A stretch of 47,424 bases of DNA from an uncultured Thiotrichaceae bacterium. GTDB lineage: Bacteria; Pseudomonadota; Gammaproteobacteria; Thiotrichales; Thiotrichaceae. Within the stretch, counting starts at the first letter, position 1. Every line of letters begins with the position of its first letter. Under the pieces are notes generated by a model that did no database searches, was not told the DNA's origin, and saw only the letters and a list, made by a program, of their open reading frames with translations. The stretch lies in the NCBI GenBank assembly GCA_902727985.1, contig CACVAY010000009.1, forward strand, positions 1 through 47,424. Reading direction: 5' to 3'. This document shows positions 37,314-40,394 of this stretch, piece after piece. The position numbers were made by a program, and so were the translations under genes.

Positions 37314-37603
37314 GTTACTTCCTTATCAAAACTAAATAAATACACAACCGTTCGTCCGAACCAGGCGTACGCAACCATTACAATTTTCAACACCAAACAG
37401 AGACAGTCGCTAGAATACAGCACCACAGACAAAGTATCGACGAGATAATTGAACGACAAAATACCAGCGATTACTACTTAAAGTGACGCTAATGAAACCT
37501 AGTCATCCGACATCGCAGACAACTTTAACTCTGGTGACGAAGTTAAAGATTATGCTAACCTCGAAGATCGAGATTAATTTTAGATTACTGATAGGAGAAC
37601 TCA
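37314..37603. other. 290-nt divergent gap with an inverted-repeat element
   Basis: Separates the leftward hypothetical-ycgN-hslR unit from the rightward DUF2892 gene. No gene is seen. The only structured feature is the 8+8 inverted repeat at 37523-37548. I find no strong promoter for either direction by eye. Confidence 0.5.
37523..37548. repeat. inverted repeat CTTTAACT-N10-AGTTAAAG, operator-like
   Basis: CTTTAACT (37523-37530) and AGTTAAAG (37541-37548) are perfect inverted copies 10 nt apart, centred about 68 nt upstream of the DUF2892 start. A second short palindrome, CTCGAAGATCGAG, follows at 37561-37573. The spacing is typical of a dimeric regulator site, but no regulator gene is adjacent. 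Confidence 0.45.
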
Positions 37604-37792
37604 ATGAACGTTAACAGAATGGTTATGGCCTTTGCAGGCGTAATGATTTTACTAAGTGTTATTTTATCCATAAAGCACAATCCGAATTGGCTTTGGTTTA
37701 CTGCTTTTGTTGGCTTTAACCTATTCCAATCGTCCTTCACCGGTTTCTGTCCGCTCGCGATGATTTTGAAAAAAATGGGCGTCAAAGAATAG
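37604..37792 (+). CDS. DUF2892-type small inner-membrane protein (YgaP C-terminal-like)
   Basis: 62 residues with two hydrophobic helices (about 6-22 and 28-45) and the characteristic end [24 protein letters not shown], in which GFCPL is the family hallmark. Standalone versions of this domain are common in proteobacteria; in YgaP it is the membrane anchor of a rhodanese. Function of the free form is unknown. The ATG has GGAGA seven nt upstream. It stands alone between two non-coding stretches. Confidence 0.88.
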
Positions 37793-37813
37793 ACATTCAA
37801 CCTAAAGGCAAAG

Positions 37814-37943
37814 CAATTGTTTTGGGGCTTGCGGAATAGAGGATTAAAGAACCATCGCTAAGATTGTAGCTTTTTATTATGGCGCAGTACCTATATTAGT
37901 CATAGCTACAATCTTATACGACGGAAAGCCCCGGAAACAATTG
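37814..37943. repeat. nested inverted repeat, possible MITE remnant or structured RNA
   Basis: Outer arms CAATTGTTT+T+GGGGCTT (37814-37830) and AAGCCCC+GG+AAACAATTG (37926-37943) pair over 16 bp with a small bulge. Inside, AAGATTGTAGCT (37860-37871) and AGCTACAATCTT (37904-37915) are perfect 12-bp inverted copies around a 32-nt loop. An internal bulge of 29 nt on one side and 10 nt on the other separates the stems. No clear target-site duplication flanks it. It encodes no plausible protein. Confidence 0.6.
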
Positions 37944-38067
37944 AAACATTATCGTTTTACTTGAGGTTCCAAACACTCGTGTCTCCACCCACTAAGACTA
38001 CAATGTTTAAAAACAGTTCCCACTAATGTTAAAAAAAAATAAAAAGAACATGACAGATAACAAACAA

Positions 38068-38079
38068 GACTTTAAAGTC
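38068..38079. repeat. 12-bp perfect palindrome upstream of lptM-lysA
   Basis: GACTTTAAAGTC, centred about 40 nt before the lptM start. It could be a regulator site for the lptM-lysA unit. No lysR-type activator gene is nearby. Confidence 0.35.
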
Positions 38080-38113
38080 ACAAATAACGCATAAACAACG
38101 GATCAATCAGGAT

Positions 38114-38248
38114 ATGTGCTGGGCAAACCGACTCTTCTTCATTATGGTACTCATTCTCGCAGTCTTGAGCTTCCTATCGGGCTGCGGCAACAAAGGTAAA
38201 CTCTACCTTCCTGAAAACAACCCCACAGAACAACCCTCTAAAAAATAA
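38114..38248 (+). CDS. lptM: LptM (YifL) family lipoprotein
   Basis: 44-residue lipoprotein, below usual ORF cut-offs. A signal peptide of 23 residues (MCWANRLFFIMVLILAVLSF) ends in the lipobox LSGC, giving mature CGNKGKLYLPENNPTEQPSKK. The GCGxKGxLYLP signature is that of LptM, the small outer-membrane lipoprotein that assists LptD oxidative maturation. The gene sits 9 nt before lysA, a common neighbour. AGGA lies only 1 nt from the ATG, so the start is slightly uncertain; a later ATG at 38144 would leave a very short signal peptide. Confidence 0.85.
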   Translation: MCWANRLFFIMVLILAVLSFLSGCGNKGKLYLPENNPTEQPSKK

Positions 38249-38257
38249 TGAAAACTC

Positions 38258-39505
38258 ATGGATCACTTCTCCTATAAAAATCAGCAATTATTTACTGAAG
38301 AAGTCGCTGTTAGCGACATAGCAAAAAACTTTGGAACACCGTGCTACATTTATTCGCGAGCCACGCTTGAACGTCACTGGCATGCATTTAATGATGCATT
38401 TGGTGAACAAAAACACCTTGTTTGCTATGCCGTTAAAGCAAATTCTAATCTTGCAATCCTCAACCTCTTTGCTCGATTAGGATCTGGCTTTGACATTGTT
38501 TCGCTTGGCGAACTCGAACGCGTTATACGGGCAGGAGGCGATCCAGCCAAGATTGTATTTTCAGGCGTTGGAAAACGTGAAGATGAAATGCAACGCGCAC
38601 TTGAGCTTGATATTCATTGTTTCAACATCGAATCAGCTGATGAAATCGACCGATTAAATGACGTTGCAGGTAAATTAAGTAAGATTGCCCCAATCTCCAT
38701 CCGTGTAAACCCAGACGTTGATGCAGGCACCCATCCTTATATATCAACCGGGCTAAAAGAGAACAAATTCGGCATCGCTATCGAAGATGCAGAGGCTGTC
38801 TATAAAAAGGCTCACGCTTTACCACATCTAAATGTCATTGGCATCGACTGTCATATCGGCTCTCAACTCACCGAACTCTCCCCTTTTCAGGATGCCTTAG
38901 ACCGGATATTGCTGCTCGCAGAAAAATTAAAAACAACAGGCATACATATCAAGCATATTGACCTTGGCGGGGGATTAGGTGTTCGTTATAAAGATGAAAT
39001 ACCCCCTTTACCATCAGATTACACGGCACAGCTATTTACCAACGAAAAAATCAAAGATTACGAAATTATTATCGAGCCTGGCCGCGCCATTGCAGCCAAC
39101 GCAGGCATTTTGGTAACTAAGGTGGAATACCTTAAGCACTCTGAACATAAGAATTTTGCAATTGTAGATGCAGCGATGAATGATTTGATTCGTCCATCAC
39201 TCTACCAAGCTTGGCAGGAAATCATTCCCGTCAGCGAAACGGCCAATGGAGACACATCAACTTATGACATTGTTGGCCCGATCTGTGAAACGGGAGACTT
39301 TCTTGGTAAAGACCGAAAGCTTTCGCTAAAACAAGGCGATCTTCTAGCTATTCGATCATCAGGAGCTTATGGCGCCACCATGTCCTCCAACTACAATACC
39401 CGACCTCGAGCTGCAGAAATCATGGTTGATGGTGACGAAACTCATCAAATCAGAAAAAGGGAAACGATTGACCACCTCTTACAAGGCGAACACATCATTC
39501 CCTAG
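38258..39505 (+). CDS. lysA: diaminopimelate decarboxylase
   Basis: PLP-dependent enzyme converting meso-diaminopimelate to lysine, the last step of the pathway. 415 residues. PLP-lysine Lys60 in CYAVKANSN; HIGSQL and the glycine-rich phosphate loop DLGGGLGV; EPGRAIAANAG; catalytic Cys in GPICETGDFLGKDR; C-terminal SSGAYGATMSSNYNTRPRAAEIMV. It is preceded by lptM (9 nt). The usual downstream partner dapF is absent; a convergent hypothetical follows 20 nt away. Confidence 0.98.
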   Translation: MDHFSYKNQQLFTEEVAVSDIAKNFGTPCYIYSRATLERHWHAFNDAFGEQKHLVCYAVKANSNLAILNLFARLGSGFDIVSLGELERVIRAGGDPAKIVFSGVGKREDEMQRALELDIHCFNIESADEIDRLNDVAGKLSKIAPISIRVNPDVDAGTHPYISTGLKENKFGIAIEDAEAVYKKAHALPHLNVIGIDCHIGSQLTELSPFQDALDRILLLAEKLKTTGIHIKHIDLGGGLGVRYKDEIPPLPSDYTAQLFTNEKIKDYEIIIEPGRAIAANAGILVTKVEYLKHSEHKNFAIVDAAMNDLIRPSLYQAWQEIIPVSETANGDTSTYDIVGPICETGDFLGKDRKLSLKQGDLLAIRSSGAYGATMSSNYNTRPRAAEIMVDGDETHQIRKRETIDHLLQGEHIIP

Positions 39506-40282: not shown

Positions 40283-40359
<77 letters not shown>

Positions 40360-40364
40360 CATTC

Positions 40365-40394
40365 AAAAAAAGCCCCGATATCGGGGCTTTTTTT
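40365..40394 (+). terminator. intrinsic terminator between tRNA-fMet and rimP
   Basis: AGCCCCGAT (40371-40379) followed directly by ATCGGGGCT (40380-40388) is a perfect 18-nt palindrome flanked by A and T runs, with seven T after the G-C part. It separates the tRNA from rimP, as in the E. coli metY-rimP region, and must be partly read through for the operon to be expressed. Confidence 0.9.

Follow-up and report, generated by a model that had tools for sequence, protein, structure and literature searches.

Small RNAs (sRNAs) that depend on the sigma factor sigmaE are the closest described systems to the locus presented here. In the portion of the report available to us (PMC1804206), MicA and RybB appear as intergenic genes with a conserved sigmaE-type promoter. 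VrrA, in the available part of its own report (PMC2628432), is an RNA of about 140 nt that carries a putative Rho-independent terminator, and both the RNA and its sigmaE site are conserved among related species. FoxJ of Fusobacterium nucleatum is described in the corresponding excerpt (PMC11005410) as sigmaE-controlled and about 156 nt long, and its recognition relied on promoter boxes shared with rpoE and on conserved synteny.

The element studied here lies in the gap between a DUF2892 gene and lptM-lysA, within a window that we define as the whole analysed stretch of 47,424 nucleotides from an uncultured Thiotrichaceae bacterium. Like MicA, RybB and VrrA, as far as the available parts of those reports describe them, it is a predicted intergenic sRNA gene preceded by conserved promoter-like boxes of the sigmaE type; unlike them, it has other neighbour genes, no Rfam match and a terminator loop of at least 32 nt, and its dependence on sigmaE and any omp targets are putative. 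With FoxJ, on the same partial view of the source, it shares the size class and a recognition based on promoter boxes and synteny, but phylum and locus are different, and the cytosine stretch that is FoxJ's likely seed is not seen in the element. A similar size class and a long nested hairpin also recall 6S RNA (RF00013), but the locus fails to match RF00013. The window's genome has its 6S match elsewhere (G000:C7), and 6S RNA was rejected as a candidate.

We consider it probable that the hairpin forms the 3' end of a minus-strand sRNA gene of about 140–150 nt, with an RpoE-type start and intrinsic termination. The best reading is that Thiotrichaceae hold a new family of sRNA whose transcription is probably driven by an ECF sigma factor of the sigmaE type; the kind, a sigma-controlled sRNA, is already known, and the family appears to be new. 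The features on which the following paragraphs rely are these:

37604–37792, plus strand: YgaP-like_TM gene (PF11127, equivalent to DUF2892), convergent with the predicted sRNA
37814–37830, minus strand: outer arm, 3' side, from folding and repeat search; no counterpart seen in relatives
37838–37851, minus strand: T-rich tail TTCTTTAATCCTCT behind the hairpin, 5 of 8 bases T in the window
37840–37990, minus strand: putative sRNA of about 140–150 nt, its 5' end placed from the -10-like box and its 3' end from the T-rich tail
37852–37924, minus strand: terminator-like hairpin, identical with the inner repeat (arms 37904–37924 and 37852–37871)
37877–37884, minus strand: invariant loop sequence CGCCATAA, identical in four of four species
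37926–37943, minus strand: outer arm, 5' side, from folding and repeat search; no counterpart seen in relatives
37973–37978, minus strand: invariant GAGTGT of the 5' domain, from column identity across four species
37993–37997, minus strand: -10-like box TCTTA, 16 bases after GAACTG (TCAGA in the other three species; TGTAGTC invariant)
38014–38019, minus strand: -35-like box GAACTG; GAACTGTT invariant in four of four species
38114–38248, plus strand: lptM, scoring above the PF13627 cut-off and oriented divergently to the predicted sRNA, its start at 38114 set by eye

A nested inverted repeat at 37814–37943 with a 32-nt loop had been reported in a preliminary description, and it is present as placed. 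By repeat search, the inner arms (37859–37871 and 37904–37916) are separated by 32 nt and are 100% complementary over 13 bp, one more than the 12 bp given originally. The inner stem grows to 37852–37871 and 37904–37924 in folding once a bulge of one base is allowed along with minus-strand G.U pairs, while the pairing of the outer arms is interrupted by a small asymmetric bulge; the repeat search recovers these outer arms as 14 nt at 86%. None of 200 dinucleotide shuffles folds as well as the repeat region on either strand (z -3.88 for plus, -4.81 for minus). Two places in the window carry perfect 13-bp arms no more than 150 nt from each other, the inverted repeat itself and 40365–40394, against a mean of 0.15 places in 100 shuffles of the whole window, 12 of which contained any. 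Because no shuffle folds as well and the arm places stand far above the shuffle mean, the inverted repeat is real and exceeds chance. The second place, 40365–40394, sits right behind a tRNA (40283–40356) and looks like an ordinary terminator.

A blastn search for further copies, suggested in the preliminary description, returned a single copy of the 130-bp element in its own 3.5-Mb genome and no match in 56 other genomes, nor was there one in a plasmid collection. The element looked orphan because blastn is too weak for homologues as divergent as these. Four further genus genomes keep the order of DUF2892 gene, gap and lysA (with lptM ahead of lysA by eye), and the same gap of G003, G004 and G005 holds a homologous block, with 78–85% identity among these three and 48–54% between them and the window. 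A plus-strand covariance model (R1), built from these three sequences only with the window held out, finds the window at 37854–38020 (31.2 bits, E 4.7e-7), and up to E 0.1 its matches fall in 4 of 63 family genomes, namely the window's own and the three from which it was built. The minus-strand model from the same three sequences (R2), with the window again held out, finds it at 38020–37848 with 44.1 bits and E 1.3e-11; the 44 against 31 bits is not a pure comparison, since R2 spans a few positions other than those of R1.

Across the whole genome of the window (G000), this position is the sole match of R2 at E up to 1 (E 9.2e-10), and a search of 46 loci yields the two known relatives and one chance match (E 6.4). 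The unit is detected by R2 in four of the six genus genomes; at E below 0.04 there is no match among 57 family genomes outside the genus, and 12 further matches with E from 0.044 to 0.36 look like chance. R2 does not detect the unit in G001, which is complete, and G002, which is 69% complete. Behind the DUF2892 gene of G001 lies a shorter gap of unrelated sequence without the promoter motif. This shorter gap likewise folds as long nested hairpins.

Conservation of the pairing was assessed in a covariance-model-based alignment of the four species (A8), which leans to structure by construction and replaced a MAFFT alignment that had misplaced the window's arms; a fifth row of an earlier alignment (A7), the reverse reading of the palindrome in G004, was left out by a stricter threshold. 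In A8, 97.4% of the 114 cells keep their pairing and both partners have changed in 16 of 30 pairs; neither value is reached by any of 500 shuffles, and controls in which partners were slid by 1–3 columns give 33–44% paired cells (44.2% at most) with no more than four double-changed pairs. In the window the inner hairpin retains every one of its 17 modelled pairs, although 13 of these have changed on both sides across the four species, and the window's inner arms form an exact inverted repeat independent of this structure-fitted alignment. The signal is weaker in the three relatives alone, where five pairs are double-changed and 44 of 500 shuffles reach as many. The window is gapped in three of the nine pairs of the 5' stem and in three of the four of the small inner helix; with a third of its pairs thus gapped, the 5' stem is the less sure part of the structure. 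The outer arms have no counterpart that we could see in the homologues of G003, G004 and G005. Read along the minus strand, the T-rich tail comes before the 3' outer arm, which would therefore enter the RNA only upon read-through; the outer arms may be a back-up structure, or may serve the convergent DUF2892 gene.

The strand assignment changed in the course of the analysis: a first reading as a plus-strand RNA, the one modelled by R1, was abandoned because the pattern of A.C and G.U pairs favours the minus strand. The non-Watson-Crick pairs of the relatives are mostly A.C on the plus strand, which is to say G.U on the minus strand, where two A.C cells are left, both in the outermost pair of the weak inner helix. 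Over the four species, the minus strand counts 9 G.U against 2 A.C cells (binomial 0.033), and RNAalifold on the three relatives gives -42.6 for minus against -36.0 for plus. The raw folding energy of the transcript is lower on the minus strand in all four species; its z-score is better on minus in just two of the four and better on plus in two. The eight bases beyond the hairpin hold 7, 6, 8 and 5 T on the minus strand (5 in the window) and 1, 2, 3 and 0 on the plus strand. The original remark that the element has no U-tract is correct only on the plus strand and at the outer arms: read in the minus direction, the inner hairpin runs into TTCTTTAA, with T at five of eight positions. Similarly, the idea of a structured RNA, raised at the same time, is supported as regards structure and needs amending as regards its frame: the RNA would lie on the minus strand rather than the one considered, and extend some 80 bases further, up to the promoter-like site at 37993–38020.

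At five of eight, the window's tail is weak, and the loop of the terminator-like hairpin (32 nt or more) is longer than usual. A terminator scan of 37550–38260 reports no terminator-like site at the hairpin; this loop is longer than the scan allows. Over the same range, a sigma-70 scan gives three promoter-like sites (shuffles 1.6, sd 1.2); one of the three, a weak site on the plus strand at 38050–38078, could serve lptM. In G003, an extra stretch between the element and lptM carries by eye a TTGACA...TACACT-like promoter, which suggests a separate promoter for lptM-lysA in that genome.

Upstream of the structured part, all four species carry GAACTGTT, then a spacer, then TGTAGTC, with 15 of 16 box columns identical against none of nine in the spacer (Fisher 5e-6); of the 60 columns upstream of these promoter-like boxes, three are identical. 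Both GAACTG-N16-TCTTA of the window and GAACTG-N16-TCAGA of the other three species agree with the AlgU consensus GAACTT-N16/17-TCtgA as given in the accessible part of PMC10651043, whose predicted-promoter lists, in that same part, contain GAACTG...TCgaA and GAACTA...TCttA. RpoE (TIGR02939) is encoded above the NCBI cut-off in all six genus genomes, and in each of them GAACTT-N15-TC stands ahead of rpoE (three flagged by pattern, three found by eye), so that the spacer of the unit exceeds the rpoE spacer of the same genomes by one base. This longer spacer, and TCTTA in place of TCAGA in the window, count against the reading. The RpoE family model makes 5 to 10 matches per genus genome, one in each over the cut-off, and with several such matches another ECF sigma factor is possible. 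Given the one-base difference in spacing and these other ECF-like proteins, RpoE is the presumptive sigma factor of the unit.

The pattern GAACTK-N16-TCWRA is not enriched in the six genomes (58 matches against 77 in a reversed control; 8 against 18 in G000), and it does not pick up the site in the window itself, with its TCTTA. Among 30 retrieved matches, 7 lie outside frames of at least 100 codons, and one of these 7 is the predicted RNA's own promoter in G004. With few matches outside long frames and no enrichment, the sigmaE pattern alone proves little. By eye, the stretch between the GAACTT promoter and the start of rpoE is longer in G004 than in G003 and G005 and contains sequence resembling an inverted repeat, possibly an insertion.

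Other readings of the locus have to be set against this evidence. A structured element on the plus strand, either a leader of lptM-lysA or a long 3' UTR on the DUF2892 transcript, that would stabilise or regulate the mRNA it belongs to, is unlikely. The element does start 22 bases past the DUF2892 stop codon and upstream of lptM, on the strand of both, and the plus strand folds well too (z -3.88), with the better transcript z-score in two of four species; but departures from pairing are mostly A.C there, the plus side lacks a T-rich tail (0–3 of 8), invariant boxes around an unconserved spacer make promoter sense on the minus strand only, and no lptM leader matched in Rfam. We regard it as quite improbable that the hairpin is a terminator alone, placed between convergent or adjacent genes and ending no sRNA of its own. 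The long stem and the T-rich tail of the minus strand would fit such a function, but conservation reaches about 100 bases past the hairpin to the invariant promoter-like boxes, and there is no minus-strand gene between lptM and the hairpin to be terminated.

It is very unlikely that the transcript is a short mRNA encoding a small peptide, such as a leader peptide, from the GTG within GAGTGT. This GTG is kept in all four species with purine-rich bases by eye a few positions upstream, yet the frames of 28, 21, 9 and 20 codons differ threefold in length and enter the conserved stem, and conservation tracks pairing rather than codons. Least credible, and rejected here, is the small mobile element (MITE) put forward in the preliminary description, or any other mobile relic. 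Terminal inverted repeats with CAATTG at each end, and outer arms unseen in the relatives, recall such elements; however, CAATTG is self-complementary, so its presence at both ends is no proof of a target duplication. The element is moreover single-copy in its genome and has orthologous homologues in three genus genomes, in which the same site is therefore not empty, and the G001 gap is shorter and unrelated.

The sRNA reading is based on homology and synteny in four genomes, compensatory pairing, promoter-like boxes with constant spacing, an encoded RpoE and, on the minus side, a T-rich tail. From these we infer transcription of the sRNA, RpoE as the sigma factor behind it, and a mode of action resembling that of MicA, RybB and VrrA. 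The unit would run on the minus strand from 38020 to about 37840, pointing away from lptM-lysA and towards the DUF2892 gene. Transcription would be initiated a few bases past the TC..A box at 37993–37997 by an ECF sigma factor, in all likelihood the cell's own RpoE (sigmaE); the 5' domain of the RNA would fold first and the long hairpin next, after which RNA polymerase would halt in the T-rich tail by intrinsic termination. By analogy with MicA, RybB and VrrA, the RNA may base-pair with envelope-protein mRNAs under stress and, as the further analogy with FoxJ suggests for an RpoE-driven sRNA, would damp the synthesis of envelope proteins, the invariant loop CGCCAUAA and GAGUGU being candidate pairing sites.

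A more specific proposal, which we hold to be doubtful, is that the RNA is an arm of the RpoE envelope-stress response in Thiotrichaceae and that its pairing site is the loop of its own terminator, the stem drifting while CGCCAUAA stays fixed and the RNA shutting off mRNAs that begin with AUGGCG. This loop pairs in principle with UUAUGGCG, its complement, in which an alanine codon comes right after the start codon. A target scan of six genomes for AGGA-N4-10-TTATGGCG, which contains the loop complement, gave 15 matches against 23 in the reversed control. The only orthologous pair among them belongs to a gene in G004 and G005 that we take to be sqr-like; the start of this gene fits the motif in those two genomes, whereas G003 has TTATGGCA there and G000, the window's own genome, has another sequence and no match. 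Ahead of this gene, G003, G004 and G005 share ttaccataaaacaggagagttattATGGC without a change, but G000, G001 and G002 do not.

At gathering score, Rfam returns five tRNAs for the whole window and nothing at the element, in line with the initial impression that no known riboswitch is matched here. At a relaxed threshold, the locus and its three homologues give two matches (E 0.69 and 3.5), both outside the element; they are of snoRNA type and were rejected as chance. Among the literature found on RNAs in Thiotrichaceae (Beggiatoa/Thioploca, Thiothrix) and around lptM, no such RNA appears in the portions available, and PMC8195603 and PMC4679880 are, by title and opening of the abstract, about other matters.

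Once the other strand was considered, comparison resolved what had seemed an isolated hairpin in a gap into a predicted gene with promoter, body and terminator. The unit would represent a family that Rfam lacks, from a group in which the literature found, as far as its available parts go, describes no such RNA. If it is driven by RpoE, the design that couples an envelope-stress sigma factor to a small RNA would reach another branch of the Gammaproteobacteria.
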